Positions 5,703 to 42,437 of a stretch of DNA of 62,842 nt are shown here, piece after piece; the stretch's first letter is position 1; each line of letters starts with the position of its first letter. The position numbers were made by a program, and so were the translations under genes. The stretch is from Hydrogenimonas cancrithermarum (GTDB taxonomy: Bacteria; Campylobacterota; Campylobacteria; Campylobacterales; Hydrogenimonadaceae). The stretch lies in assembly GCF_030296055.1 (NCBI RefSeq), contig NZ_AP027371.1:1-62842 (forward strand), written 5' to 3'. The notes under the pieces are model-generated. The model searched no databases and was not told where the DNA came from. It worked only from the letters and a program-made list of their open reading frames with translations.

Positions 5703-8700
5703 AAACTCACTCCTTCCAACAACTCTTTATTCCGGTTCAAACGTTCTTTCCAATGTTTCGGATCGTCACCCAGAAAAAGAGGAATATATCCGTGATCTTC
5801 CAGTGTTTCAAGCACCTTTTCATCTGCGGATGAGAGTAAAAGCGCTACTTGGGATTGGATATAGAGTGCGTCTACTTTGAAACCGGCTGCCTTTGTGTTC
5901 CAACGATCCGGCAACGGCAGTCCCATCTCGATCATCAACTCCTCCAGCGCCTTTTGAAGGCTGTTTAGACCGGCATGCTCCGCAACTTCCAACGGCGTCT
6001 CCTCCTGTACGACGGCAGCGGCGGTAAGCCTGCACAAAAGTGCAAGAACTTTTTCGTTTTTACGGTCTATCTTGCCGTGATCGGGCTGATTGTAGTAACT
6101 TAACAGACATTTGTAACAACCCGCCTCACAGATAGGTGTCCCATCGGGCTGTGTAATCTCTTTGAGGTTCTCTATAGTGCATCGCTCTTTGACCTCAAAG
6201 TGCATGATCTGCAAGGCGCGTCCCGCAACTCTAGAAAGCGCCTGCGCATCGTGAGCGAGCCTGGTCAATACTCCCGCACCGCCTTCGGAGGCTTCATAGA
6301 ACAAAATCGCATTGCGGGTCTCTTTGTTGGGTAACGGTTCGACCATCAGTTCACTCTCTTCAAGCTGAAACACCGACTCGATCCCCCGTTTGAGGGCATA
6401 TTGGAGCGTGATCATTTCAACTTCGTCCATCTGTTCCGCAGGATGGACAATGAGGATATTTCTCCTATCCTCCACAAATGGAACAATCCGCTCCGCCCTG
6501 ACGACATCGGGATCGGGCGCTCCGTCGCTGTCGGGTTCTTCACCTTTGGTCCAATAACCGGTGACCGGATCGATATTGAATCCCAGAATAGTGCGCTCTT
6601 TGCGCCTGCGCCACCCCAGGTTCATCCGCCAGACGGTGGCGGAGGGGGCATACTGAAGTTTCAAAATCGCCTGTTCTTCCTCCATGGCCTCGGCGTCGGT
6701 GTGTTGCAGAATTCCGTGTTCTACGGCGAATTGAAAGGTCGTCTGCATTTCGTACCCCTGGCGCATTCGCTCCTCTTCGTCGGCGGTAATGCGCAGGGCG
6801 CGTTTCGTGGAGACGTTGTCGATACGGTAGAGATTGGGGATTTCGAAGGCATCGGAGAGTTTTGTCCCACAAGCGATACATAGCTCGGCGTCGCGCTGGG
6901 ATTGGAAGTGACCATAGCCACAGTTGGGACAGATCTTGGCATACGTTTTGGGCAGGGTATTGTCCGCCGCCACTTCGGAATCGCTGGAAAGGGTGAGCAT
7001 TGCACGCACGACTCTGTATTGGCTTCCCTCGTGATAGATGAGACTGAAGGGACCGAACTCGGAAAGCGCCAGAAAACGCGGGCGTGTAAGATAGGTCTCT
7101 CCGCCGGCTTTTTTGCTACGACCCGGAATGTAGGCCATGAGCGGCAGGCGGGGAAAGTTGTATCCCGGCAGAAACCCCTGGGATGCCAGGTAGCGATAGG
7201 TATAAAAGTCGGAATTGAGGGTCGCTCTTTCCTGAAGAAGAAGTTCTTTCTGCCGATAGGCTTCGTCTAATCGGCTCTTCGCCTCCTTGCGCTCTTTGTG
7301 ACTTACACTGGAGTCATTCAGGATCTGACTGCTGATCTCGATCTGCGCCGTGGTCGCCTTGTACATGTCACGCCAGCGATCGAGCGCACGATCGAATGCC
7401 TCCATCGTGCCGCCGACGACTTTATCCACCCACTCCCCATCGTACCAAGGGGCTTTTTCATGTGTGAGCTCTTCTGAAAGCATGGCGACAATTTTATTGG
7501 CTCTTTTGTGGGTACGCATGGTAAGGTCTCGCTCTGACAGAGACACTTCAAGATCGTTTTTGAGAGACATTTCGGACTTTTCCAAATCGAGCAGGCCCCG
7601 GATGCTGTTGTCGAGCTTAACTCCGGTTTCAGAAAGCCAGAGGGAGTGGATGTGACTGCGAACAAGATCCTGGTTGGAGAGATCAAGAGTGGGGGCTTTG
7701 ACCTCTCCATGCACCATGCGCACAGGATCGGAGAAAAAGTACTGATCGTGGGGGCTTTGTGCCGCGCAATAGGTCAGAATCAGCGCCGGTTGGCCGGAAC
7801 GACCCGCCCGGCCGCTTCGTTGAGCGTAGTTTGCCGGCGTGGGAGGCACATTGCGCAGATAGACGGCATTGAGCGTCGCGATATCGACACCAAGCTCCAT
7901 CGTCGGAGAGCAGAAGAGCACGGGTAGTTTCGCTTTTCTGAAGCTTTCTTCACGTTTCTCTCGTGTCTCGGCATCGACCTGCGCCGTATGTTCGTGGCTT
8001 TCAAAATTGAAGAGCTGGTGTACATCGGAGCCGAGTGCGGCGGCGATGTTGCGATAGAGATCACGGAAGAATGGGTTGTTCGCCGCCTTGGATTTGAGAT
8101 GTTTTTCCTCTTCACCCTCTTCTACGAGTTTCCATATCAGAGCGTCGCTACTGAGTTGATAGGTATCTATATCGTAGTCGGAATCGGACTTTTCTATGAT
8201 CCCGTAATTCAGCAATGGCTGCAAAAGTGAAAAGATGATCGCAGGATAGGTATCGTCAGTGATGCGTTCAAAATTTTTCGGATCGGCATTCCATGTCCTG
8301 GCCTGCTTGAGAATGCGTCCCAGCCTGGAGCGGCTACTGCCGCTTATCAATATCTCTTTTTCGGCTTTGGATATACCGCGAGGGAGTTTACCGAAATAGA
8401 AATAGCGGGAAGAGACCGGCTCCTCGTCTTCGCTAAAAGACCAAGGCTCCTTGAGGTTGGCAAAACTGTCGTTTTTCAATCGCTCCAGGAAGTGAGGATC
8501 GAGGTAACGCGATTTGATCGCAAGTCCCTGGCGCATCGTATCTAGCATCTGCTTTAGAACCTCCTTTCGCACTTCAGGAGAAGCCTGTTTGACAAAGTCA
8601 GGAGCTTCCTGCCATTCACTCTCATCAGCAGCCACTTCGTCGAGATCTATATAGTCGATATGCAGCAGCCCCAGCTGTTCAAGGTTGGGATTGTTTATGC

Positions 8701-10846
8701 GCCATCCACGCCTGAGATCGAAATAGAGGCGATATCCCAGCATATTGCGCATCGTCTCTTCGATCTTGCGGCGTAACTGTCCTTTTGCCCCTGCCTTTTC
8801 GGGATGGGTAAACTCTGTACGATTGGCTTCTTTGTCGAATCCGAGGGCTTTAAAGACCTCCATGGCAATTGTTTGTTCATTCAAGGTTCGCGCATTGTTG
8901 GCAAGCGCTTTGACGAGTGAAGCGCGCAAAAGAAGGATATGGATGAAATCGTTGAAGTGTCCAGCCTGCAAGGATGCGTCCTGGCGATTGTCCGTAAAAG
9001 CGAGAATCTTTTTCGCCTCCGGCGGCAATTCTTGATCCCTTTCGTAGAAATAGCGAAGTACCGACATGGTTAGAATCGTCGTAGCAGTGCTTCTTCCTTC
9101 TCCACTCAAAGAGGCCAGGCGCGAAGCATCGCGTCCCTGAGCTCCATGGGAAACACCGCAGCTAAGACAGAAACGGAATTTACCAGGGATATACCATCCG
9201 TGAATACCTTTCTCATCGATAGCTCCATCAGGTAATACTTTTACCGGTACGGGCTTTTTTTTGACATAATCTTTTTTGAGTCGCGGTTCGGCTCGGGTAA
9301 AGTCGATCCAATTTTCCGGATAGTTTTCGATGTTGTCTTCCCAAACCCCATCGGTGTCTGGCATGAAAAATCCAAATTCATTTTCGTTTTCGCCAAGAGT
9401 TTCATCAAGCGATCTGGAATCCAAATGGGTACCCTGATTCCATACGGGGAAATATTCCTGTCCGCACTCTCGGCAAAAATGGGTGTGAAAGAGGCGGCGG
9501 CGACGGTCACCTGGAACAAACTGTTGTCCCTCGAGCGTTAGATAGCGACTTCCCTCCTCTTCCAAAGTGGCATAGAGATTGCCAGCGCCGGAAATGAACT
9601 GATGGAGCCTGAATGCAAAAAAGGAGTGACCATCTTTTTGAGTTTTATAGGCAGCAAGAAGAAATTTGGAGAGCTGTTTCCTGCAAAAGTCTATGTCATC
9701 GCATTGTAGATCGGAAGCAAGTTTTTTCGCCGCTGCCTCTATTGTGATTGGTTTGGCACGCACCCATTTATTCTCTTTCAGTTCAAGCCCCATTGTCAGC
9801 TCAACCCATATCGCCAAGGGGTTATGAATCAATTCACCGTAGGCATACTCCTCTTTGACTTGGGAGACCGCTTCTTCGAGCTGGGGCAATATATCTTCTT
9901 TCATCAGAAACGGATCGGTGGCACGTTCGAGCGTTTCGGTAATGATGTTTTCAACCCTTACTTCAGCCCCGAAAAGTCGGCCGGCTACATCCGCAACTAC
10001 TTTGTTTCGTTCCTCCTCCGTCCCTTCACTCGCCATCGTCGCGGAGGTGCCGATGCAAAGCAAATCGGGATTTAGCCGTTCGCGCACACGGCGAATAAGC
10101 ATCGCCACATCCGCCCCTTGGCGTCCTCTGTAAGTATGCAACTCATCGAGCACCAGAAACTCCAACCCTTCCGCATTGCGAATAACCGATTTGTCGACAT
10201 CATCCTGCCGGATTAGCAAAAGTTCCAGCATCATGAAGTTCGTCAGCAGTATATCCGGCGGATTGCTTGCGATACGTTGACGCTCTTCGCTATTCTCCTG
10301 CCCCGTATAACGGGCATAGGTTACCGGCCTATCTTCACCAAAGTCCTGAAAAAATTTTTCGAGTTCCTCGATCTGGCTGTTTGCGAGAGCATTCATCGGG
10401 TAGATGATGATTGCACTGGTTTTTGGCGTCGGATCTTTTTCTTTTTCATGCAAAATGCGATCGACGATGGGGATAAAGTAACTCAATGACTTACCAGACC
10501 CGGTGCCTGTGGTAAGAACATAGCTTTCTTCTCTTTTCGCGATAGCGATGGCTTGTTCCTGATGCGTATGTAGGCGAAGACTCGCTCCAGCAAATTGTTT
10601 ATTCTTTCCAAGCCGAAAAATTTGCCCACACTGTCTGTGCAACGCTCCTCTATCCACCAACTCATCTACGGTGGAAGCCGGTTTGAAATGGGGATTGATC
10701 TGAACAAGAGGAGCAGGCCAGTAACGCTGTTGTTCATGCTCATGCTCAATAAATTTTTTTATATCTTCAGCTTTGATTTTTGAGTAACCGGTTGAAAAAC
10801 GGCGATACTCATCTATTACGAATTCACGTAAAGCAAATGCATTCAT
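5699..10846 (-). CDS. DEAD/DEAH helicase with DUF1998 (MrfA-like zinc) domain, possible fused DrmA-DrmB
   Basis: 1,715 residues. Walker A TGTGSGKS lies at 113-120, the Walker B variant DELH near 230, and the helicase C-terminal motifs ELGVD and QRSGRAGRSG near 980-1010. A zinc cluster (CRECGQ) sits in the middle and another (PNCGYG…CIACG) near 1310. The DUF1998 cysteine signature CEAGCYKC is near 1575. The last 90 residues look like a degenerate PD-(D/E)XK/Vsr-like fold, which is a weak call. It is the first gene of the operon. The length and order suggest that DISARM DrmA (helicase) and DrmB (DUF1998) functions are combined in one chain. MrfA-type repair helicases share the architecture but are much shorter, so a repair role is the alternative. 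Confidence 0.85.
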   Translation of the reverse strand: MNAFALREFVIDEYRRFSTGYSKIKAEDIKKFIEHEHEQQRYWPAPLVQINPHFKPASTVDELVDRGALHRQCGQIFRLGKNKQFAGASLRLHTHQEQAIAIAKREESYVLTTGTGSGKSLSYFIPIVDRILHEKEKDPTPKTSAIIIYPMNALANSQIEELEKFFQDFGEDRPVTYARYTGQENSEERQRIASNPPDILLTNFMMLELLLIRQDDVDKSVIRNAEGLEFLVLDELHTYRGRQGADVAMLIRRVRERLNPDLLCIGTSATMASEGTEEERNKVVADVAGRLFGAEVRVENIITETLERATDPFLMKEDILPQLEEAVSQVKEEYAYGELIHNPLAIWVELTMGLELKENKWVRAKPITIEAAAKKLASDLQCDDIDFCRKQLSKFLLAAYKTQKDGHSFFAFRLHQFISGAGNLYATLEEEGSRYLTLEGQQFVPGDRRRRLFHTHFCRECGQEYFPVWNQGTHLDSRSLDETLGENENEFGFFMPDTDGVWEDNIENYPENWIDFTRAEPRLKKDYVKKKPVPVKVLPDGAIDEKGIHGWYIPGKFRFCLSCGVSHGAQGRDASRLASLSGEGRSTATTILTMSVLRYFYERDQELPPEAKKILAFTDNRQDASLQAGHFNDFIHILLLRASLVKALANNARTLNEQTIAMEVFKALGFDKEANRTEFTHPEKAGAKGQLRRKIEETMRNMLGYRLYFDLRRGWRINNPNLEQLGLLHIDYIDLDEVAADESEWQEAPDFVKQASPEVRKEVLKQMLDTMRQGLAIKSRYLDPHFLERLKNDSFANLKEPWSFSEDEEPVSSRYFYFGKLPRGISKAEKEILISGSSRSRLGRILKQARTWNADPKNFERITDDTYPAIIFSLLQPLLNYGIIEKSDSDYDIDTYQLSSDALIWKLVEEGEEEKHLKSKAANNPFFRDLYRNIAAALGSDVHQLFNFESHEHTAQVDAETREKREESFRKAKLPVLFCSPTMELGVDIATLNAVYLRNVPPTPANYAQRSGRAGRSGQPALILTYCAAQSPHDQYFFSDPVRMVHGEVKAPTLDLSNQDLVRSHIHSLWLSETGVKLDNSIRGLLDLEKSEMSLKNDLEVSLSERDLTMRTHKRANKIVAMLSEELTHEKAPWYDGEWVDKVVGGTMEAFDRALDRWRDMYKATTAQIEISSQILNDSSVSHKERKEAKSRLDEAYRQKELLLQERATLNSDFYTYRYLASQGFLPGYNFPRLPLMAYIPGRSKKAGGETYLTRPRFLALSEFGPFSLIYHEGSQYRVVRAMLTLSSDSEVAADNTLPKTYAKICPNCGYGHFQSQRDAELCIACGTKLSDAFEIPNLYRIDNVSTKRALRITADEEERMRQGYEMQTTFQFAVEHGILQHTDAEAMEEEQAILKLQYAPSATVWRMNLGWRRRKERTILGFNIDPVTGYWTKGEEPDSDGAPDPDVVRAERIVPFVEDRRNILIVHPAEQMDEVEMITLQYALKRGIESVFQLEESELMVEPLPNKETRNAILFYEASEGGAGVLTRLAHDAQALSRVAGRALQIMHFEVKERCTIENLKEITQPDGTPICEAGCYKCLLSYYNQPDHGKIDRKNEKVLALLCRLTAAAVVQEETPLEVAEHAGLNSLQKALEELMIEMGLPLPDRWNTKAAGFKVDALYIQSQVALLLSSADEKVLETLEDHGYIPLFLGDDPKHWKERLNRNKELLEGVSL

Positions 10847-11766: not shown

Positions 11767-12125
11767 GTCACCAATATGTTTACAACTCGCCCTGAAGTGT
11801 CACCTTTTATTAGGATTAACCCCTCAAAACGTCACCCTTTGTTTGGAAGAACGCGATCATTTGTGAGATTTTCAAACTCCCATTTTTCGGGCTTTCTGAA
11901 AGAGATCTTTTTCTGCGTCACCTTTTATTGTGAACAATTCCTTCAAGCGTCACCAATTTGTTTACAACTCTCTTCAAAACGTCACCTTTTATTAGGATTA
12001 ACCCCCCAAACGTCACCAATTTGTTTACAACTCATTCGAAGCGTCACCTTTTATTAGGAACAACTCATTCGAAGCGTCACCAATTTGTTTACAACTTTCC
12101 CTGAAGTGTCACCTTTTATTAGGAA
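11767..12125. repeat. Array of ten 32-bp spaced GTCACC repeats (copy 1)
   Basis: GTCACC occurs at 11767, 11799, 11831, 11917, 11949, 11981, 12012, 12043, 12076 and 12108, with spacings of 31-33 (three helical turns) except for one gap. Two downstream tails mostly alternate: TTTTATTAGGA and AATTTGTTTACAA. The array lies upstream of the replication genes and has a shorter homologous copy at 39571. It looks like an iteron or operator array for a protein not clearly encoded here. Confidence 0.75.
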
Positions 12126-15497: not shown

Positions 15498-16139
15498 TTG
15501 ATCATTACGGTCGCCCATACGAAAGGTGGAGTCGGAAAATCGTTGATAGCGTGGAACCTGGCCATTGCGCTCGGTGCCAAAGTGATCGATCTCGATTTTC
15601 AGCAGACGCTTCTGTTCGCCAATGCCATTAGGGAACAGAATGGCTTGAAGCCAATCGACGTGCAGCAGATAGAGACGCTCGAGGATTTTTTCAGATTTTA
15701 CGAAAACCAGAACGAAAAGAGCAGGGTGGTCATCGACGTAGGGGGGTTCGATTCGGATCTTACGAGAATGGCGCTCTATGTTGCGGATATCGTCTTGACG
15801 CCGGCATCCGAACGCCTCACGGAGCTTGCCGGGTTGATGAAATTCGACGAGATCGTAACGCAGGTTTCACAGAATGTCGATGTGGAAATAACCAGCCATG
15901 TGGTCGTCAACAACGTCAGCCCCAACGCGAAAGATTTTTCGATAATCGAGGCGTTCGTCGAGGAAAAAAACAATTTCAGGCTTTTGAACTCGATACTCCA
16001 TCAGAGGGCGGACTACTATAAGTCGCTTGCGGAAGGCAAGTCGGTTATGGAGTTGAAAAACTCTAAAGCGAAAAAAGAGTTCAAGGCATTTGTGAAAGAG
16101 ATCAAAAAGGTTATCAAGCATGGCGAAAAAAAAGATTAG
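15498..16139 (+). CDS. parA: ParA-type partition ATPase
   Basis: 213 residues, a small Walker-type partition ATPase. The deviant Walker A HTKGGVGKS lies at residues 7-15, with both lysines of the ParA/MinD class. The second conserved block VVIDVGGFDSD follows near 75-85. It has no N-terminal HTH, like type Ib ParA. The start codon is TTG after GAAGGTG. The gene overlaps parB by 20 bases. It should form gradients on the nucleoid and move ParB-parS complexes. Confidence 0.92.
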   Translation: MIITVAHTKGGVGKSLIAWNLAIALGAKVIDLDFQQTLLFANAIREQNGLKPIDVQQIETLEDFFRFYENQNEKSRVVIDVGGFDSDLTRMALYVADIVLTPASERLTELAGLMKFDEIVTQVSQNVDVEITSHVVVNNVSPNAKDFSIIEAFVEEKNNFRLLNSILHQRADYYKSLAEGKSVMELKNSKAKKEFKAFVKEIKKVIKHGEKKD

Positions 16140-16983
16140 TCTCGAAGCGTTGAAAAAGGCCAGTAAAATGGCTCATCTGCAGACGAAGGAGCAAGAGAAA
16201 GAAGTTTCGCATGCGAAACTTCCGGAAATCGAGATCGGTAAAATCGTCGAGAACCCTTATCAGCCCAGACTCTCCATCGATGAATCGGAACTGAAAGAAC
16301 TGATGGAATCGATTCGAAGACACGGCCTGCTTCAGCCACTCGTGGTTTCGCGAATGGAAGATGGCGGCTATCAGCTGATAGCCGGACACAGACGTTTTGA
16401 AGCCTGTAAACGACTGGGCAAAAAAAGCGTTGTGTGCGTGGAGGTCGAGAAGAACGTGGAGAGTGACGAAGTTAGGCATCTTCTTTCCCTCGCGCTACAG
16501 GAGAACATCCAAAGAGTCGATCTCGCGCCGCTGGAAATCGCCGTCTCGTTAAAGTCAGCTCTGGACAGCGAGGCATTCGCCACGATGGAAGAACTGGCCA
16601 TGGGAATAGGCAAGTCCAAATCGTTCGTAAGCAAGGTGCTGTCGTTGCTGAAACTTGATGATTATATCGTGGAAGATCTGGCACGGAGTAGGGCGGTAGG
16701 CGATATCGAAGCACTCTATATGCTCCAAAAAATCGACGACAAAAAGACCCAGAGGAAACTTTACGACGCTCTGAAAAATGGCGAAATAGGACGCAAGGAA
16801 ATAAAGTCCATCCTGCAAAAAGGTGAAAAAGTTTCGCATGCGAAACCGGTCTACAGAATTCGCAAAACCGGGAAAAAACTGAATATGCAGTTCAATGGCG
16901 GATCGATGGACGAAACGACTCTTGAGGCTATTCGGGAAGAGATCGAAAAGATTCTACAGAAATATGCAGTGGAGGAGAAATAG
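16120..16983 (+). CDS. parB: ParB-type centromere-binding protein
   Basis: 287 residues. The ParB/Srx fold has NPYQPR (45-50) and AGHRR (88-92), the CTPase motif of ParB clamps, then the motif ENIQR (129-133), followed by the helix-turn-helix (about 155-190, MGIGKSKSFVSKVLSLL). The tail is a basic dimerisation segment. It overlaps parA and follows the rep-dnaB pair. The DNA encoding residues 29-33 and 238-242, VSHAK both times, is in each case a perfect palindrome, so the gene appears to carry its own binding sites. Confidence 0.93.
   Translation: MAKKKISLEALKKASKMAHLQTKEQEKEVSHAKLPEIEIGKIVENPYQPRLSIDESELKELMESIRRHGLLQPLVVSRMEDGGYQLIAGHRRFEACKRLGKKSVVCVEVEKNVESDEVRHLLSLALQENIQRVDLAPLEIAVSLKSALDSEAFATMEELAMGIGKSKSFVSKVLSLLKLDDYIVEDLARSRAVGDIEALYMLQKIDDKKTQRKLYDALKNGEIGRKEIKSILQKGEKVSHAKPVYRIRKTGKKLNMQFNGGSMDETTLEAIREEIEKILQKYAVEEK
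16201..16222. promoter_or_regulatory. Probable parS site 1 (22-bp perfect palindrome)
   Basis: The core GTTTCGCATGCGAAAC (16204-16219) extends to a 22-bp perfect palindrome inside parB. Its outer arms match the chromosomal parS pattern GTTTC…GAAAC, but the centre differs. The same 16-bp core recurs at 16831, and I found no copy elsewhere. Confidence 0.7.
16831..16846. promoter_or_regulatory. Probable parS site 2 (16-bp palindrome)
   Basis: An identical 16-bp core, GTTTCGCATGCGAAAC, in the same codon phase near the 3' end of parB, 627 bp from site 1. Confidence 0.7.
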
Positions 16984-25327: not shown

Positions 25328-25545
25328 ATTCATCTCCTTTCCCCCGTCCGCATGGGGCTGCGGATGAGGCCTCGATAAGATAATTATAGCAAATAATCGG
25401 CAAAACGGCTACCGGATAAAGTCGCCCAATATGCCTTCCAACGGCGGTGTGCCGGGACCGGTGCTGCAGTGCCGGCAGGCAAAAACGATTGCGGTTTTTT
25501 TTGCGTATTGATAAAATATGCGAATCATTCAAGCGAGAGGACGGC

Positions 25546-28500
25546 GTGAAAACAAGATATACCGAAAAAGAGATCGAGCTGGCGAAAAGGGTGCTGGACT
25601 ACTATAGGGAATCGTTGAGGTACGACACGATTTCCGGGGTGCGCTTCGGCCCGGGGGATTTTGTCGACCAGGCCTACAGAGAAATCTCTCCCTCGTCTCC
25701 CTTTTTCTACTTCGACCTCAAGAACCATGACGCGCTGCGCGCCGTCGTGCGCCACTGCGCCAGAAAGAACCGTGAGACGTGGGAGCGGCTCGGAAAACCC
25801 CGGGAGGGCGTCGAAAGCAGATTCAGGTTTTTCTATGCGCCCATGCTCGTCCCGTTCCCGTCCGAGCCCGGCAGCGAGATGAGGTATTTCGCCCCCTTTT
25901 ACGTTGAATTCCTGCAGCCTTCGTGGGCAAAGAAGTCCGGGAAAAAGCGACGGTTCGCAAAAGGGCTCGACGGCGTCGTCGCGCTGCGCTTCAAAGTGGC
26001 TTCCCGCACGGACATATATGACGCGGAAAACGACAAGGATTTCTTCGGCCACTCTTCCATGGAGGTCAACCTGGCGCTGTTCGGGCGCCCTTTCTATCTT
26101 CTCGACGAGGAGTTCATGCAAAGGCTCTCCCGGGCAAGGGAGCGCCGGGGGCGTACCGGAAAGATCGAAACCTACTCCCATCTCATCGAATCGATGGCGC
26201 TGATCTTCGAGGCGATAGACGGCGGCTATGCCGGGCTTGACTCCACGCAAAAAAGAATCGAGCGTTTTTTGGGCCAGCTCGAAGAGGCGAGAAACAAAAC
26301 GGCGTCGAACACCTATTCTCACCGGATCTCTTTTGAATCCGCAAAGCTCGGCACCTTTGTCTTTGTCGTGGACACCGCCGAGCTCGACAGTTCGGACAAA
26401 TATAACGGGGGAATGCTCAATCTTTATGCCCAGATGCTGGATGACGGGCGGCTGGATACCTCGGGCAATCTTTTTCTCGATTATCTTATCGGATCGCCAA
26501 TCGCAAAGGCCCCCGTTCCCGACGAAAGCATGGCCAGAAGCGAAGAGGGCAAAGGATGGCGCTTCAAGCGCTTCGGCATCGAGGATCGTGTCGCATTGGC
26601 CCGGAAACAGTATGGAGCGTTCGATGCCAACTACGCGCTAACGAAAAGCCAGCGGTACGCGCTGCAGGTCGCCAAAAGCGGACTGAGCATCGTTCCCGTC
26701 AGCGGTCCTCCCGGTACGGGAAAAACTTCATTGCTCCGCGCCTTTGTCGCGGACTACGTCGTCGAAAGCGCCCTTCGCGTAATCAGGCAGAAGGATGAGG
26801 GAAGAGAGTTCGACGAGATCGAGTTTCCCCCGCCGATCGCTGCGTTTTCCACAAACAACCAGGCGCAGAGAAACATCATCGAAGGGATGACGGAAGGGTA
26901 CTTGAGCGCCAAAAAGGCCGGCCCCTTCTACCAAAGATGGCTGGACGCGAGCATCGACTTCAAGGAGTTCGAGACGGTCGACGGTATCGGGCTGTACGTT
27001 CCGATGCTGAAGAGTTCGTTCAGTGACGACGGCGATTTGAGCCTGACCATCAACAATCTCCTGGCGATCCGCCTGGATATACGCCGAAAGGCCGAAGAAA
27101 GGGCGAAAGAGTTTTTGGAAAAGGCCCAGTCGTGCCTTCAGGATTTCGCGACGGTCGAGGTGACGCACGCCAATGCCAAAAGGCTGCTCCACAAGCTCTA
27201 CAGGCGGCTTGCCGCCGATATCCGCGACAAGATCGAAAAAATAGAGAAAGAGATCCACATCGCCGTCGATGAAAAGCTCGAACGGTTCGAGAAGAACCTC
27301 TCCTTGCTCGAAACCGCCGCGCGGCTGGCCCACAGGGACGACCTGGCGGAAGATATCGCCGAGGACACGAAGAGCGAAGGGGAGATGGCGCTGGCTATCA
27401 GCGACGTTGAAAATTTCATCGGCAAAGCCGAATCGCTGCTGAGGCAAAGGTCCGAAGAGCACCGGGAGGTCGTCGCGGAACAAGAGCGTGCCCAAAAGAG
27501 CGCGGCGGCCGAGGCCAAAGCCGAATTCGAGTCGCATTCGGCGGAGATAGGCGCGGAATATGGCAAGCAGATCGAAGAGGCGGGCGAAAAATCGAAAGAA
27601 GAAAAAACGAATTTCAGCCGGCTGCAGTCCGACCTTCGGCGCATCGAGGAGCAGCTTGCCGCAATCGAGAGCGAGAGAAAGCGTTTCTTTGCCAAAATAT
27701 GGCCGTGGACAAGGCAGAGGCTGCGTCGGGAGGCGGAGCTTATGGCGGACGAGGCCGAGCAGGCAAGAGCGGAGATCCGGGAAGCCGAAAGGAGAATCCG
27801 CGGCTTCGAGAAAGAAGCCAGGGATCTGTCGGACAAGCGCGACGTCGCGATAAGTAGAGCCAAACAGGAGGCGGACAGGCGTCTTCGCAGCCGTGTGGAC
27901 GGCATCATTGACGAAATCAACAAGAGGTGGCAAAAGCGGGAGGCATGGTATGCCGAGGCGTTTGCGGATATGGGCTTTGACGATGCCGAAGCGGCGGAGC
28001 GGGCCGTGGAGACCTTTTCAAAGGTTGAAAAAAGCGGATACTTCGGGCCGGAAGACGCCCTAAGAAAACTCGAGGAGACGAGTGCCGGGCTCGATACGTC
28101 GCTCCGCCTCCACCTCTTTTTCGCTTCGATGCACCTGCTCGAGACGGTGCTGCTACTCAAGATGATCGAGGGCACGGACAGGGAGGTCTGCCCGGCGTGC
28201 GGGAAGCCCGGCGTCGCAGTGGGGGAAAAGCTGATCAAACACGACGCCTGCGGTTTCAAGATGCGGCGCGTCGTCCCCGACGGCCGGAACGGGGAGCGGC
28301 GGCTTTCGGACGGAGAGATCGAACGGGTGCTCACCGGCGGCATGATCCTCTCCGACCATACCTACTACGCGCCGGTCGAAAACAGGGAGGGATGGTACAA
28401 CATGCAGGCGGTTTATGGCGCGTCGGCGCGCGAGACGCTTTCGCAGCTCAGAGACCTTCTTCCTCTCTTTCCGCTTCTCAATACGACGGCCCAGTCTTTT

Positions 28501-29487
28501 TTCAGCGTGTTTTCCTACAAGGACAAGGCGGTCGGAAAAAAAGTGCTGCCCGAGGGCTTTTTCGAATACCTTTTCGTCGACGAAGCGGGGATGGTTCTGC
28601 CATCACTCATGGCGAACCTTTACGCGGGCAGAAAGGTCCTCCTGTTCGGGGACGAGAAACAGATCGAGCCGGTTTACCCGTTCGGCGGCGACGAGATCGT
28701 CGACGAGGTGGTGGCGGACAGGGCGGCGGAAGGCGACGGTACGCTGCGCGAAATGATCAGGGACGGGTATTCTCTTTTGAAGATGAGCGCCATGTCGCTG
28801 GCGAACCGGGCCCTGTATATCGAAGACAAAAATGCCGTCAGGGCCGACAAGGGAGCGCCCATCTGGCTCCTTCAGCATTTCCGGTGCAAAGACCCGATCG
28901 TGACCTACTGCAACAAGCTGGTATACGACGGCAAGATCGAGCCGCTGGCGGGAGAGGACGAGGAGATGTGCCATCTCGTCTTTGTGGAGCATGCAGAAAA
29001 TATGTCGACGGAGCACAACATCTGCACGGCGGAAGCGGAAATTGTCGCCGAGCTTGTCAATGAGCACCTTTTCGAGGGGTACGGGCTCGACGAAATCGGG
29101 GTCATCACCCCGTACCGGAATCAGGCCGAGGCAATCAAGCGAACCTTGGCCAAACAGGGCTACGACACAAATACAATCCAAATCGGCACCGTGCATAAAT
29201 TTCAGGGCTCCGAGCGCAGGGTGATTCTGTTTTCAACTTCGAGCGGCGCCAATTCGCCCCGGCGTGGAGCGGCACTCTTTATGAACCGCGACAGGGGCAA
29301 TATGCTCAATGTGGCCGTCAGCCGCGCGAAAGAGCGCTTCGTGCTGATCGGCTGCAGAGAGATCATCGCACCGGACAACATCTGCTATTCGGGCATGCTC
29401 GTCGAGCACATCGAGTCGTGGTATCCCGGCGGGAGCTGCTTGAAAAGTCATGCATCCGATGCATCGCTGTCGACGCTGAGTGGCTAA
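25546..29487 (+). CDS. Large SF1 (AAA_11/AAA_12) helicase with coiled-coil insert and zinc site
   Basis: 1,313 residues from GTG 25546, which follows GAGAGGA. Walker A is GPPGTGKTS near 386, Walker B FVDEAG near 1010, then GDEKQIEP. The C-terminal helicase half has GVITPYRNQ, IGTVHKFQGSE and NVAVSRAKERF. Between them lies a long charged coiled coil (about 510-850) and a zinc-like site CPACGKPG…HDAC near 882. The N-terminal 380 residues match nothing I know. This is the Upf1/Dna2-like SF1 group. Several defence systems use such helicases (for example Mokosh and Hhe), but no partner nuclease is adjacent. The nearest genes are a 41-aa frame and a membrane protein. Confidence 0.85.
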   Translation: MKTRYTEKEIELAKRVLDYYRESLRYDTISGVRFGPGDFVDQAYREISPSSPFFYFDLKNHDALRAVVRHCARKNRETWERLGKPREGVESRFRFFYAPMLVPFPSEPGSEMRYFAPFYVEFLQPSWAKKSGKKRRFAKGLDGVVALRFKVASRTDIYDAENDKDFFGHSSMEVNLALFGRPFYLLDEEFMQRLSRARERRGRTGKIETYSHLIESMALIFEAIDGGYAGLDSTQKRIERFLGQLEEARNKTASNTYSHRISFESAKLGTFVFVVDTAELDSSDKYNGGMLNLYAQMLDDGRLDTSGNLFLDYLIGSPIAKAPVPDESMARSEEGKGWRFKRFGIEDRVALARKQYGAFDANYALTKSQRYALQVAKSGLSIVPVSGPPGTGKTSLLRAFVADYVVESALRVIRQKDEGREFDEIEFPPPIAAFSTNNQAQRNIIEGMTEGYLSAKKAGPFYQRWLDASIDFKEFETVDGIGLYVPMLKSSFSDDGDLSLTINNLLAIRLDIRRKAEERAKEFLEKAQSCLQDFATVEVTHANAKRLLHKLYRRLAADIRDKIEKIEKEIHIAVDEKLERFEKNLSLLETAARLAHRDDLAEDIAEDTKSEGEMALAISDVENFIGKAESLLRQRSEEHREVVAEQERAQKSAAAEAKAEFESHSAEIGAEYGKQIEEAGEKSKEEKTNFSRLQSDLRRIEEQLAAIESERKRFFAKIWPWTRQRLRREAELMADEAEQARAEIREAERRIRGFEKEARDLSDKRDVAISRAKQEADRRLRSRVDGIIDEINKRWQKREAWYAEAFADMGFDDAEAAERAVETFSKVEKSGYFGPEDALRKLEETSAGLDTSLRLHLFFASMHLLETVLLLKMIEGTDREVCPACGKPGVAVGEKLIKHDACGFKMRRVVPDGRNGERRLSDGEIERVLTGGMILSDHTYYAPVENREGWYNMQAVYGASARETLSQLRDLLPLFPLLNTTAQSFFSVFSYKDKAVGKKVLPEGFFEYLFVDEAGMVLPSLMANLYAGRKVLLFGDEKQIEPVYPFGGDEIVDEVVADRAAEGDGTLREMIRDGYSLLKMSAMSLANRALYIEDKNAVRADKGAPIWLLQHFRCKDPIVTYCNKLVYDGKIEPLAGEDEEMCHLVFVEHAENMSTEHNICTAEAEIVAELVNEHLFEGYGLDEIGVITPYRNQAEAIKRTLAKQGYDTNTIQIGTVHKFQGSERRVILFSTSSGANSPRRGAALFMNRDRGNMLNVAVSRAKERFVLIGCREIIAPDNICYSGMLVEHIESWYPGGSCLKSHASDASLSTLSG

Positions 29488-30780: not shown

Positions 30781-31143
30781 TTATTGCGAGGAGATCGCGA
30801 CCGTGTTGCGGATGAGGTCGAAGTGTTCACGGAAGGAGTGCCCGAGCTCGCTTTCGACCTTCCTGAATTCGAGGTTTATAGGGTCCTTCTTTGCTTTGTG
30901 TATTTCGCCCGCATCGGCGCCCGTCATAACCAGCTCCTCGTGTGCCCTGGCATCCAGTTCCGCCTTCGCGGCCTTCTCTTCCGCCTCTTTCGCGGCCCGC
31001 TCGGCCAGCGCCCGCTCCCTCTTCGCCTTCCCCTCTTCCTGCGCGGCGGCGACCACCGCCCCGTCGATGCCGAAGAGGCTTCCGATCATGTCGGCATTGA
31101 GGCTTTCGTCTTTGGACAGTTTCTCGAAAAGCGGATCGCTCAT
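30781..31143 (-). CDS. Hypothetical coiled-coil protein (120 aa)
   Basis: Start ATG 31143 follows AAGGAGATATTG and overlaps the stop of the upstream gene (TGATG). The centre is an alanine/glutamate/lysine coiled coil (ERALAERAAKEAEEKAAKAE), and the tail reads SFREHFDLIRNTV. It looks like a structural or tethering partner of the 207-aa protein encoded just before it. No homologous family is recognised. Confidence 0.6.
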   Translation of the reverse strand: MSDPLFEKLSKDESLNADMIGSLFGIDGAVVAAAQEEGKAKRERALAERAAKEAEEKAAKAELDARAHEELVMTGADAGEIHKAKKDPINLEFRKVESELGHSFREHFDLIRNTVAISSQ

Positions 31144-31766
31144 CAATATCTCCTTCTCTTCGTGTTCTCGACGATCGCGTCGATCTTCTCCTCCATCCTC
31201 GCGAGGCGTTTTTCGAGCGTGTCGATTCTTTCGTTCAGCTGCTTGAACCTGAGCATCATGCCGTCCCATAACGCCCTGATCTCCTTTCCCAGATATAGCT
31301 TCGCTTTTTGGGTGTTGTCGTTGGTCTGGAGGATGAGCCGGCCGATATTCTCAAGACCGCCCCCGATCCAGGCGCGGTTCTTCAGGTGAAAATCCCTCAT
31401 CGCCTCCTCCCTGTCGAGCATCCACTCTTTGACCTCTACCCCGGTCCTGATGATCCTCTTCTCGAAGTTCGTTCCGGCAACCGAGGCGATCTTCTCGATC
31501 AGCCTGCCGTTGATCTCCGGGACGGTCTCTTTTTCGAACGACTCCTTGATCTCGTAGAACCTCTTGGCCAGCTCCGCTTTCCGCTCATCACTCATATTTT
31601 CGTCGGCCTCTTCGATCTCCATCAGCGTCTGCACGTCTTGCAGCTTCCGTTCGAGTTCGTCCGAAATTTTCCTCAAGTCCATAACCAGTCCTCCGCTTGC
31701 TTGATTGAGCGCCATCGTTTTGGCGATCTCCGATCCGTTAATTGCAGCATCTGTATTTTTACTCAT
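31143..31766 (-). CDS. Hypothetical coiled-coil protein (207 aa)
   Basis: First gene of a two-gene minus-strand operon; it shares one base with the next start. It is mostly helical. An acidic N-terminal helix pair (LRKISDELERKLQDVQTLM) precedes a central WIGGGLENIGRLI segment. The C-terminal coil LNERIDTLEKRLARMEEKID has near-perfect heptads, probably driving oligomerisation. It ends with a basic patch, KRRRY. No catalytic motif. Same GC-rich composition as the neighbouring block. Confidence 0.6.
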   Translation of the reverse strand: MSKNTDAAINGSEIAKTMALNQASGGLVMDLRKISDELERKLQDVQTLMEIEEADENMSDERKAELAKRFYEIKESFEKETVPEINGRLIEKIASVAGTNFEKRIIRTGVEVKEWMLDREEAMRDFHLKNRAWIGGGLENIGRLILQTNDNTQKAKLYLGKEIRALWDGMMLRFKQLNERIDTLEKRLARMEEKIDAIVENTKRRRY

Positions 31767-32957: not shown

Positions 32958-33258
32958 TTAGTTTTTTCCTTAATAAAAGGGTATTGATTTCACACCCTTC
33001 CAAAATATTGCCCGTCTTTATATTCAAATACTGCACGATACCGTTTTTAAGCAAAACCGTCTTATTCAACGTAAACGCAGTGTTGTAGAGGGTTAGAATG
33101 TCCAGCTTGTTTAAGTTTACGAGAATGGCAAAATCGGCACTTTCCTGGGCAAATATCTCGCCTCCTTTGCTCTCGATTTTGGCAAGTCCATCAACCGACC
33201 CCTCGAGGTATAGCATTGAAATCGGATAGACGCTTTTCTCCCCGATCCCTTCGCGCAA
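32950..33258 (-). CDS. Hypothetical protein fragment (102 aa), probably lost its N terminus
   Basis: The frame reads YPISMLYLEGSVDGLAKIES then LNKLDILTLYNTAFTLNKTV, a beta-rich pattern. Before the ATG at 33258 the sequence in another frame (GEGLYLQGRSGEKRLVYGV) continues the same character. That suggests a frameshift and a longer ancestral gene, up to about 33380. Its 5' side is now occupied by the 11-bp repeat array. It overlaps the small secreted protein gene. No family recognised. Confidence 0.4.
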   Translation of the reverse strand: MREGIGEKSVYPISMLYLEGSVDGLAKIESKGGEIFAQESADFAILVNLNKLDILTLYNTAFTLNKTVLLKNGIVQYLNIKTGNILEGCEINTLLLRKKLND

Positions 33259-33377
33259 ACACCGTAAACAAGGCGTTTCTCTCCACTCCTACCTTGCAAA
33301 TACAGCCCCTCTCCGCCGCCGCCGGACGGGCAAAACCGCACAAAATCGGCAAACCCGAGCCCGGATCGGAGCGGAAA

Positions 33378-33600
33378 CATGGCCTTTGCATGGAAACATC
33401 ATGGAGCTGGCGCGGGAATGGCGTGAGCTTATCATGGATACGTCATGGTTTTGGCATGAATTTGTCATAGTATTGGCATAGTATTGGCATAGTGCTGTCA
33501 TGGGAATGTCATGGGAATGTCATAGTAATTTCATGCCGATTTCATGGGCTCGTCATGGCTTTTACATAGGAATTTCACGAACCAGACACGAAAATGACGC
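33378..33600. repeat. Array of about 21 tandem 11-bp helically phased repeats
   Basis: CAT (or its variant CAC/CGC) recurs every 11 bp with no slip at 33378, 33389, 33400, (33411), (33422), 33433, 33444, 33455, 33466, 33477, 33488, 33499, 33510, 33521, 33532, 33543, 33554, 33565, (33576), (33587) and (33598). Parentheses mark degenerate units. The consensus unit is close to CATGGNNNNGT or CATAGTATTGG. Exactly one helical turn per unit places every CAT on the same face of DNA. It is non-coding in both directions and ends 90 bp before the HTH gene at 33690. Confidence 0.85.
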
Positions 33601-33615
33601 GAATTTACACGCCCC

Positions 33616-33626
33616 TATGCTACAAT
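33616..33626 (+). promoter_or_regulatory. Extended -10 promoter after the 11-bp array
   Basis: TATGCTACAAT contains TGN-TACAAT, an extended -10 element. It lies 18 bp past the last repeat unit and 64 bp before the ATG of the downstream gene, so protein bound to the array would cover the -35 region. Confidence 0.45.
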
Positions 33627-33689
33627 CTCGGAAAAATGAAGATTTCTCACTCTCCCACAAGGGGCGGGTCCAGTAAAGGAGACACCACA

Positions 33690-34808
33690 ATGACGGCACC
33701 GATGGCCAAACAATACGACAAAGCGGAAATCATGGCGTTCATGCCCGACAAAGGGCGGCTCTACCGCTACCTCTTCAAACGCCACATCCGGCTGATAAAG
33801 GCACTCGCAAGGGAAGGCGCCTACATCGGAACGATTGCAAGGGCGCTCATCAAGGTAGAACCCATGCTCTCCGGCGTTTCCCTTCGCACGATGTACCGGC
33901 ACCTCGTCCCGTACCTCAACGAGAACAACATCAAGTACGCCCATTTTCCCTCCCCGAATCCGAGATGCGCCAGGCCGCCGAGTCAAAACACCGCCCCCGA
34001 GCCCGAACCGGAACTGATCACGGCAAGAGAACTCCCCGAAACCCCGCCCGAAACGGATGAGAAAAAGAAGAACCAACCCCGATCCGCGAACGAAGGCAAA
34101 GAGGACGAGAGCAGAGTGCAGGCGGAACGCGAGAGAAGTGCGGAGAAAGCAGGAGATAGGACGACGGACAGGGCAGAAGATGAGGTAACGGATGAGGTAA
34201 CAGCCGATACAGCGGCCAAGACAGCAGATAGGACACAAAGCCCCGACACGACGGAACCGGAGCCGAAACGGAAGGCCAAGCCATCCAAGCCCCGCCCCGA
34301 AGCGAAAACGAAGCCGGACAAGACAAAACCCGCCCCGAAACCCGCGCGCTCAAGGCGAAAAAAAGAGCCCGAGCCCCAGCGCACGAAAGAGGAATACTGG
34401 AAAGAGGGCAAAGCCGCGCCGTCGTACCTGTTCGACCTGCCGAAAGAGGATGAAAAGCTCACCGCCTTGCCCCCGCCGGAAACGATGCCGCTGTTCAGCG
34501 ACTGGACCATCAGGGAAGCCGAAACCGAAGAATTGCGCGAATACTATAAGACCCTGAAGCACGAATACGACTATCTGCAACGCCTCGCCGACTACCGGCA
34601 CGAAGCCGCGAAGACACCGGAGATGAAAAAGCTCGAACGCGATGCGGATTTTCTGGAATATACGAAAAAATTCGACGAGTTGTGGCAAAACGAATTCTAT
34701 TACCGCTTCCAGTGGCAAAAGGTGAGGACGAGAAGAATCAGGGCGCACCTGGAAAAAGTCGAAAAAGAGATCAGGAACAGGGATATGTGGTCGCCGTTAT
34801 CCATTTAG
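33690..34808 (+). CDS. HTH protein with charged low-complexity linker and coiled-coil C terminus
   Basis: 372 residues from ATG 33690, preceded by AAAGGAG. Residues 20-75 contain a helix-turn-helix (IRLIKALAREGAYIGTIARAL then SGVSLRTMYRHL), like those of plasmid DNA-binding proteins. Residues 90-245 are low complexity: Pro/Glu/Thr, then Lys/Pro-rich (KRKAKPSKPRPE), probably disordered. Residues 260-372 are helical, with YLFDLPKEDEKLT and a coiled coil rich in aromatic residues. The gene directly follows the 11-bp array and its promoter, so it is the obvious candidate to bind it. The role could be partition, autoregulation or relaxosome. No ParM- or ParA-like partner follows. Confidence 0.75.
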   Translation: MTAPMAKQYDKAEIMAFMPDKGRLYRYLFKRHIRLIKALAREGAYIGTIARALIKVEPMLSGVSLRTMYRHLVPYLNENNIKYAHFPSPNPRCARPPSQNTAPEPEPELITARELPETPPETDEKKKNQPRSANEGKEDESRVQAERERSAEKAGDRTTDRAEDEVTDEVTADTAAKTADRTQSPDTTEPEPKRKAKPSKPRPEAKTKPDKTKPAPKPARSRRKKEPEPQRTKEEYWKEGKAAPSYLFDLPKEDEKLTALPPPETMPLFSDWTIREAETEELREYYKTLKHEYDYLQRLADYRHEAAKTPEMKKLERDADFLEYTKKFDELWQNEFYYRFQWQKVRTRRIRAHLEKVEKEIRNRDMWSPLSI

Positions 34809-34880: not shown

Positions 34881-34953
34881 GGAAAGCGTGCCCGCGCGGT
34901 CAGGGGAGAGGGGTTGCCGCCCCTCGATGGAATACCCGCGCGACGGGCTTTCC
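34881..34953. other. Long imperfect palindrome, possible structured RNA or oriT-like site
   Basis: Outer arms GGAAAGC/GCTTTCC, then CGCGCGG/CCGCGCG after a small internal loop, then an apical hairpin GAGGGG-TTGCCG-CCCCTC, spanning 73 bp. No T run follows, so a simple terminator is unlikely. It lies 70 bp after the HTH gene. Confidence 0.5.
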
Positions 34954-35260
34954 TATCAAATTATATCACGACAAAACTTAATGTTGTGAAACCGGCCATA
35001 TCTCTTACGTTTGTCACCACTTTTCCGACCTTTGGGGTTTTCTCGACTCTTGATCGCAGGGGCTGGGCCGTACCGACGTAGTATCCGTTTCGATGCGAGT
35101 TTTCAAAGATGATTTGACCATTTTTTCTCTAATACAATAATAATCAGGTATTTTATTAGGGTTTGTTTTTCAAGTATATTCTGACTGATTTCCAAAATAA
35201 TCTCACCAAATGAATATTTGCTACAATTTTCCTATTGGTGAAATAAAAAAAAGGCAAAAG
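34954..35260. other. Intergenic with coding remnant on the minus strand
   Basis: On the minus strand, about 35105-34970, an open stretch without a start codon reads HRNGYYVGTAQPLRSRVEK then VVTNVRDMAGFTTLSF to a stop. It has a protein-like composition and is probably the 3' end of a deleted gene. I do not recognise it. Confidence 0.35.
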
Positions 35261-35659: not shown

Positions 35660-36097
35660 ATGAAAACAGCACACAAAGATTTTGAAGCATTGCTCAAAGC
35701 CAAAGGCATCAGCAAAAAAGCCTTTTCTTCCTATAGCGGCATTCCCTACTACACCGTTGCCGGCTGGAAAAAGTCGGGCCAGGTTCCTACCTATGCGATG
35801 AAATTGCTTGAGCATATGCCCTCAGCCAAGGAGCAAGTGAGTGCCGGTGAGCTTCTTGAAGCGGGTATGCCCAAGGCGATTCTTTGGAACAACGACCCAA
35901 AAAAGAAGGTGCCTACCGATATTTTCATTGTCGCCACACTTGAGAGAGCCTATAACGACTTCATTGTAGAGAAGTTGGCAGCGTATTTTGGTAGTGAGCG
36001 TATTTTGTCCGCACTGCTCAAATATAAAGATCGTGTTAGCGACAGACTCATAGAGAAAGTGACCGCCTATCTGCAAGCGTACAAGAGTGTGGCATGA
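35660..36097 (+). CDS. HTH antitoxin-like protein, partner of AbiEii-type gene
   Basis: 145 residues. Residues 5-45 form a helix-turn-helix (LLKAKGISKKAFSSYSGIPYYTVAGW). The C-terminal part (VEKLAAYFGSERILSALLKY) is helical, as in the antitoxin-like regulators placed before nucleotidyltransferase toxins. I start at ATG 35660 because the promoter lies immediately upstream; the longer frame from 35519 would contain the promoter. The stop overlaps the next start (ATGA at 36094). The partner toxin gene is truncated, so this antitoxin may now be an orphan regulator. Confidence 0.65.
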   Translation: MKTAHKDFEALLKAKGISKKAFSSYSGIPYYTVAGWKKSGQVPTYAMKLLEHMPSAKEQVSAGELLEAGMPKAILWNNDPKKKVPTDIFIVATLERAYNDFIVEKLAAYFGSERILSALLKYKDRVSDRLIEKVTAYLQAYKSVA

Positions 36098-36363
36098 TCA
36101 ACCCTCAAACTAAAGCCCTGCTTGAGTCGTTTTCCTGCATTGATCTTTTTGCCAAGCATCAAGCCATCCTCATCGGAGGCACGGCTTTGGCATATCACCT
36201 GGGACACCGAGAAAGTTTTGACCTGGATATATGCTTTCCCTCTTCCGATACACTGCCGACACTCGATTTTTTAGACGATTTTGAAGAAGTCATACCTCTG
36301 GAGCATGATAGAGCTATCCGACAGCGGATGGATATGACAGAGGTCAGATCACGACCCGCATGA
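36094..36363 (+). pseudogene. AbiEii-type nucleotidyltransferase, truncated after 80 residues
   Basis: The N-terminal nucleotidyltransferase core is present: LIGGTALAYHLGHRESFDLDICF, the GG…DxD signature of AbiEii/COG2253 toxins. The gene breaks off after IRQRMDMTEV and runs into the 3' end of a metallophosphoesterase gene on the opposite strand. Full-length members exceed 200 residues, as in the copy at 41757. A recombination junction lies near 36345. Confidence 0.65.
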
Positions 36364-41756: not shown

Positions 41757-42437
41757 TTACATTTTTGATGAAAGAAGCGAAAGTACTTCTTTATGAATCT
41801 CATCCCAGTTTAATGGTTTGGGGTCTTTTTCATCAAGATAGACGATCTCATCATCTTCAGCTACCTGCATCTTTTCAATAAAATCATAGAAAGTTGAAAA
41901 AGAGTCTATTTCCTTGATTGCTTTTGATGCTATTTCCAAAATCTGCTCTTTTGTGAGTCTATTTTCTTCAAGTATTATTTTAAAGTCAAACAGGTCTCTC
42001 GATTTTTTTCGATTGAGGAGGGCTATGAGTTTGAGTTTTGCGATGGATGGCAGATCGATGATCTGTAGTTTGCCTTTTTTGTAGGGTTGACTCGATGCTG
42101 TTTTGATTATCTCTTTCTGTAGTGGTGTAGATGCTGCAAAAAACTCCAGCTTGATTCCATGAAGATTGAATTTTAGCATGTATTCATCGGGAAAGAGTCC
42201 GGCAAGCCGTAATGCCATTGCGTTAGCATCTTTGAGTTTGGTACCGCCAAGTGCCATGATCGTGTTTGTGATCTGGCGATGCGGCAAGGGTGCGGTACCG
42301 ATGATATCGATATCTTCAGAGATCCTGTGTTCAAGATAGTATGCCAAAGCCGTACCACCGACAAAGTAAAGTGGATGTGTCTCAAAGATCTCAAGCTCTT
42401 TGATCTGCTCAAGAAGTGTGATGACATTAGCAGTCAT
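41757..42437 (-). CDS. abiEii: AbiEii-family nucleotidyltransferase toxin
   Basis: 226 residues, full length. The nucleotidyltransferase signature is FVGGTALAYYLEHRISEDIDII (GG…S-x-D-x-D), followed by the fourth conserved motif in IIDLPSIAKLKLIALLNRKKSRDLFDF. AbiEii toxins transfer nucleotides to targets such as tRNA and halt growth. The start overlaps the stop of the upstream antitoxin-like gene by 11 bases. Expected effect is plasmid stabilisation and/or abortive infection. No inactivating change seen. Confidence 0.85.
   Translation of the reverse strand: MTANVITLLEQIKELEIFETHPLYFVGGTALAYYLEHRISEDIDIIGTAPLPHRQITNTIMALGGTKLKDANAMALRLAGLFPDEYMLKFNLHGIKLEFFAASTPLQKEIIKTASSQPYKKGKLQIIDLPSIAKLKLIALLNRKKSRDLFDFKIILEENRLTKEQILEIASKAIKEIDSFSTFYDFIEKMQVAEDDEIVYLDEKDPKPLNWDEIHKEVLSLLSSKM

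Follow-up and report, generated by a model that had tools for sequence, protein, structure and literature searches.

A 62,842-bp plasmid of Hydrogenimonas cancrithermarum carries 22 units of 11 bp (33373–33614, plus strand) that keep their phase without a single slip and lead directly into the promoter of P0001, a gene for a 372-aa orphan protein; as an 11-bp platform, the array is unusually long. Judging from the comparison of layouts, this locus most likely works in the manner of StbA of R388 and KfrA of RA3, with P0001 not assignable to either family by sequence. The window, i.e., the whole stretch of DNA analysed, is the entire contig of a three-contig genome, and it was recognised as a plasmid because it encodes a Rep3 initiator, a DnaB-like helicase and a ParA–ParB pair. 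The features needed for the argument are the following (supporting evidence in brackets).

33373–33614, plus strand: array of 22 units (printed region, chain simulations, information content, column identity)
33571–33614, plus strand: four promoter-proximal units of the array, with the core weakened from CAT to CAC/CGC, lying over the place of a −35 element (sequence)
33616–33626, plus strand: extended −10 element TATGC-TACAAT (sequence, array register)
33676–33681, plus strand: Shine-Dalgarno-like AAGGAG (sequence)
33690–34808, plus strand: gene P0001, encoding the 372-aa orphan protein (coding potential, composition, models)
34881–34955, plus strand: G+C-rich hairpin 3′ of the P0001 gene (sequence folding)
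15498–16139, plus strand: ParA, part of an ordinary partition pair outside the array unit (Pfam scan)
16120–16983, plus strand: ParB, the other member of this pair, likewise outside the array unit (Pfam scan)

The initial annotation had described CAT or a close variant recurring every 11 bp without slip, in about 21 units over 33378–33600. This observation was confirmed, with the limits redrawn once the region was printed at 11 bp: the array is real, in phase and uncommon, and its 242 bp are built on the unit consensus nnTGTCATRGn with the core TnnCATRG. The core C is kept in 21 of the 22 units (binomial chance 2e-12) and an exact CAT in 16, while CATR occurs in 13 consecutive units (33433–33565) within the best conserved block, 33428–33570. 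Six units deviate from CAT, namely CGC and CGT at 33406 and 33417 and then CAC, CAC, CGC and CAC from 33571 to 33604; the last four adjoin the promoter, and units 33571–33614 may accordingly be regarded as weaker candidate sites.

The longest CATR chain was four in 2000 local Markov simulations and three in 30 simulations of the whole window, against 13 observed. When periods 6 to 24 were examined on the plus strand throughout the window, a chain longer than four was found only at 11 and 22, the latter being the same array, and the period-11 information content over eight units reached 15.5 bits in the array, no other place in the window exceeding 9.1 bits. This is the only strong 11-bp array of the plasmid; an StbA-like regulon was considered and rejected, since the remaining two- and three-unit sites score far lower. 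Identity between units amounts to 65% in the core columns and 31% in the non-core ones, with 26% expected at random, and the resemblance of neighbouring units exceeds that of distant ones by little (a value as high as that observed arose in 359 of 5000 permutations). Preservation of the core amid nearly random spacers thus argues for a row of binding sites maintained by selection rather than for a fresh duplication, and points to an old array in which selection has held many putative protein-binding units. The tract had also been called non-coding, and codon statistics agree: the overlapping ORFs 33120–33380 (minus strand) and 33216–33467 (plus strand) score −0.11 and −0.06, whereas known genes score 0.14 to 0.39.

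The extended −10 element and the gene reported after the array were both found in place. The element occupies the next 11-bp register of the array and has no good −35 element at 17 bp, a scan having found none either, and AAGGAG precedes the ATG at 33690. Since the P0001 frame, with a coding score of 0.19, is the sole positive one among the six, the gene is probably real despite its having no relatives. The hairpin behind it is possibly the end of a one-gene transcript; the whole stretch around it folds no better than its shuffles (z −0.9) and gave zero matches in Rfam.

As an anatomy, an array of many units that overlaps the promoter of a protein with a probable N-terminal HTH and a helical tail is well supported. 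Residues 1–90 are 39% hydrophobic, carry a net charge of +9 and are helical in the model; the linker (91–234) is 46% charged, 15% proline and 4% hydrophobic; and the C-terminal part (235–372) is 40% charged and predicted to be helical. Single-sequence AlphaFold2 modelling of residues 1–95 gave five helices at a pLDDT of 82, rising to about 90 over residues 21–80, with no N-terminal strand; the other four of the five models stayed below 56, so this fold is tentative. In Pfam, with E up to 1, only HTH_20 (E 0.03) and HTH_40 were matched, both under their cut-offs. Thus, an N-terminal HTH is probable on the strength of one model, and the basic charge, the five-helix model and the weak HTH_20 match together support DNA binding by P0001. 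The C-terminal model consists of long helices at a pLDDT of 54, and the coiled coil is accordingly a low-confidence prediction.

No family for P0001 was found in Pfam, PHROGs or NCBIfam, and no relative among PDB sequences, plasmids, phages or viral contigs. Searches with the whole protein, its N part and its C part against several hundred Campylobacterota genomes gave no relative either; records very near the host genome may lie outside these collections, so close relatives are possible. Weak matches in related and phylum genomes contain stops or fall in long coiled coils and were taken as chance. When the N-domain model was used for fold searches, nothing credible emerged; the top-ranking structure was an Slx4 domain at Z 5.4, within the chance range for helical models; that the StbA structure 7pc1 is not among the matches listed carries no weight either way.

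A scan of 377 genomes of the phylum for seven in-phase CATs gave matches in six. For the other five, the arrays listed each repeat a single unit in near-perfect tandem, and the H. cancrithermarum plasmid is the only one with a degenerate CAT array among the matches listed. No comparable array occurs in the first 50 kb of each of three Sulfuricurvum kujiense plasmid sequences. The best-listed plasmid match of ParB comes from S. kujiense pSULKU03 (34% identity), which fits an origin in the Campylobacterota. Scanning genome contigs and viral contigs for the 11-bp CATR pattern yielded many arrays among the matches listed, most of which either are near-perfect tandem repeats or lie in intergenic Bacteroidota DNA beside unrelated genes. 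At the same time, periods 10 and 12 yield as many CATR arrays as period 11 in the viral contigs, so such matches mean nothing on their own. Among the Bacteroidota genomes (within loci L045–L164), intergenic degenerate 11-bp arrays with a CATR core are frequent, e.g., CCATACTT, some of them beside housekeeping genes. At two loci, L140 (387–508) and L067 (327–448, minus strand), a degenerate TCATR array with 11 units of 11 bp precedes a gene of about 107 codons. The two genes are homologous, and their products contain cysteine pairs and are unrelated to P0001.

One of the two closest parallels is StbA of R388, which binds 9-bp repeats spaced by two, i.e., at an 11-bp pitch, around the stbABC promoter and is needed for plasmid stability, acting through these repeats (PMC3098194); for maintenance of R388, the array and this single DNA-binding protein suffice. 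Up to 400 bp upstream of the R388 StbA gene and of twelve related genes, carried by plasmids of Xanthomonas, Pseudomonas, Moraxella, Pandoraea and Comamonas, were scored at periods 8–16. Period 11 ranked top in 11 of these 13 regions, with z from 3.6 to 11.7, and the region upstream of P0001 gave a z of 10.3 at the same period. R388 and the present plasmid also supplied 47 upstream regions as controls, of which four reached z 3.5 at period 11; two of these four were the R388 stb array and the P0001 array viewed from the divergent gene, leaving 2 of 45. The contrast between family members and controls therefore indicates that upstream 11-bp arrays are common in the StbA family, and the P0001 locus behaves likewise. 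The StbA/TraD-family genes scored (L014 and L256–L267) are divergent, and the core sequences of the arrays upstream of 11 of these 13 differ from one another.

P0001 thus resembles StbA in having direct repeats at an exact 11-bp pitch upstream of or around its own promoter and, by prediction, an N-terminal DNA-binding domain followed by a tail. The differences are also considerable. P0001 has 372 aa against 141 in StbA, its 22 units form a single block where R388 has two sets of five, and nothing in StbA corresponds to the predicted helical C-terminal part of P0001. No StbB-like ATPase gene follows P0001, and neither an stbB/stbC operon nor a relaxase was found among the 48 ORFs scanned with Pfam, so that the operon, relaxase and oriT neighbourhood of StbA are absent. 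BLASTP gave no alignment of P0001 with StbA, and hhalign assigned its N domain a probability of 0.1 to 0.8%, under several shuffled controls, a relation beyond the reach of sequence methods being possible.

KfrA of RA3 is the second parallel. It is a monocistronic product with an N-terminal HTH and a helical tail that strongly represses its own promoter via five 9-nt repeats, contacts ParA- and ParB-type proteins and assists ParAB segregation, and its DNA binding is required for plasmid stability (PMC7783346). P0001 shares with it the single gene, the predicted N-terminal HTH, a tail predicted to be helical, repeats iterated across its own promoter at a single locus and the presence of ParAB on the same plasmid. 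The KfrA repeats are 9 nt long, five in number and partly inverted, in contrast to 22 units at a pitch of 11, and the tail of P0001 has a long, charged, Pro-rich linker ahead of its helices; no match of P0001 to the KfrA family was found in Pfam with E up to 1. The precedent offered by the initial annotation, parC of plasmid R1, holds for the 11-bp direct repeats at the gene's own promoter, and, putatively, for an adaptor assembled on repeated DNA, as ParR is; StbA and KfrA are closer. The P0001 plasmid has no ParM-like motor among its 48 scanned ORFs, the N domain of P0001 is predicted to be helical rather than ribbon-helix-helix as in ParR, and the array is one upstream block, whereas the parC repeats flank the promoter. 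As R388 StbA (11-bp pitch, own promoter) and RA3 KfrA (repeats, ParAB accessory) share this logic, the suggestion that the system is of a new type loses force.

From these comparisons, the following mechanism may be proposed. P0001 would bind all 22 units upstream of its gene by means of the N-terminal HTH, each helical turn taking up one subunit or half-dimer, and the bound proteins would thereby be aligned along a single face of some 240 bp of DNA. Once the weakened units next to the promoter were occupied, the extended −10 promoter of P0001 itself would be shut off, while the flexible, charged linker and the helical C terminus would project from the platform and link plasmid copies with one another, with the nucleoid or with the ParAB segrosome. 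Through this tethering, P0001 would help plasmid maintenance as an accessory adaptor. The position of the array upstream of, and in register with, the P0001 promoter supports P0001 as the binder, and we consider it quite probable that the protein binds the array and autoregulates. The whole account, in which a maintenance role is added to binding and autorepression, is given about an even chance. What counts against it is that the N domain of P0001 has neither a detectable sequence relation to StbA nor a convincing fold match, and that a plasmid already equipped with ParAB does not require a second maintenance function.

The simplest competing reading would have P0001 repress its own gene via the array and do its real job elsewhere, e.g., in DNA packing or silencing, the array having no role in inheritance. 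The array does end on the promoter, the plasmid has no second array or regulon, and in KfrA 3 to 5 repeats suffice for strong repression (PMC7783346). That last figure also tells the other way, for 22 selected units over 242 bp, about four times the five of KfrA, far exceed such a need and suggest a structural role beyond autoregulation, which is the main argument for the tethering account; moreover, the copies nearest the promoter are the weakest of the array. Autoregulation as the sole function is rather unlikely. Alternatively, the binder of the array might be ParB or Rep of the plasmid, or a regulator of the host, with the P0001 gene being only its target. The link between P0001 and the array is indirect, and the own site of ParB was not found, there being neither a chromosomal-type parS with up to 3 mismatches nor an inverted repeat near parAB. 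ParB_N/HTH_ParB proteins as a rule bind palindromes near parAB, whereas the array consists of 11-bp direct repeats 17 kb away from it. In addition, Rep3 has its own repeats (11915–12125), and StbA, KfrA and ParR all bind beside their own genes as a rule, which makes a different binder improbable.

Two further readings assign the array to larger machineries. As R1 ParR binds 11-bp repeats (PMC9426499) and the array resembles such centromeres, it could belong to a full new partition system of the ParMRC or TubZRC type, with P0001 as the adaptor and the product of an unrecognised plasmid gene as the motor. Among the 48 ORFs scanned with Pfam, there is no actin- or tubulin-like protein, which bears out the earlier statement that no ParM partner is visible; about 700 bp after the P0001 gene are without a recognised partner gene, ParAB is already present, and the N-domain model is all-helical. 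This reading is thus very improbable. The relatives of StbA include RP4 TraK, which binds the oriT region (PMC3098194), and a TraK-like relaxosome module or an iteron-like replication origin can be imagined on this ground. The relaxosome, also raised initially, is unlikely with no relaxase in any of the 48 ORFs; the origin is unlikely as well, because the Rep3 gene with its own repeats lies at 11.9–14.1 kb, no second Rep is nearby and no DnaA box occurs within 6 kb of the array. Together, these two variants have only a slight chance of being correct.

In the tethering account, P0001 could represent an undescribed family of plasmid DNA-organising proteins that has independently reached the solution of StbA, KfrA and ParR. 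It would be a maintenance element that consists of a single protein and works without a motor, its in-phase 11-bp platform being the longest in this comparison, and its flexible linker and helical tail would connect plasmids with the nucleoid or ParAB. We put this forward tentatively, as a possible rather than an expected outcome. If P0001 binds the array, several unrelated plasmid proteins (StbA, ParR and P0001, with KfrA at 9 nt) would have converged on repeats of 11-bp pitch at their own promoters. Being longer than the motor-free StbA type and bearing a tail, P0001 would be a convenient system for testing tethering. Furthermore, the 11-bp periodicity upstream of StbA-family genes offers a way to find such systems without protein homology.

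Several other loci of the plasmid deserve mention. The repeats of about 31/64 bp at 11915–12125 (GCGTCACC..., period 64, 3.3 copies) precede the Rep3 gene and are likely the plasmid origin region. At a distance of 1.6 kb from the array, a 207-aa helical, coiled-coil-like orphan protein with good coding potential is encoded at 31143–31766 (minus strand), possibly a KfrC-like partner. Large helicase-like proteins, one of 1346 aa with an IGHMBP2-like C-terminal part (25447–29487) and two of 930 and 1715 aa with SNF2/DEAD and MrfA Zn-binding domains (2910–10846), are probably defence systems. AbiEii-type nucleotidyltransferases are encoded twice, by a short gene at 36094–36363, which looks truncated, and by a full-length one at 41757–42437.
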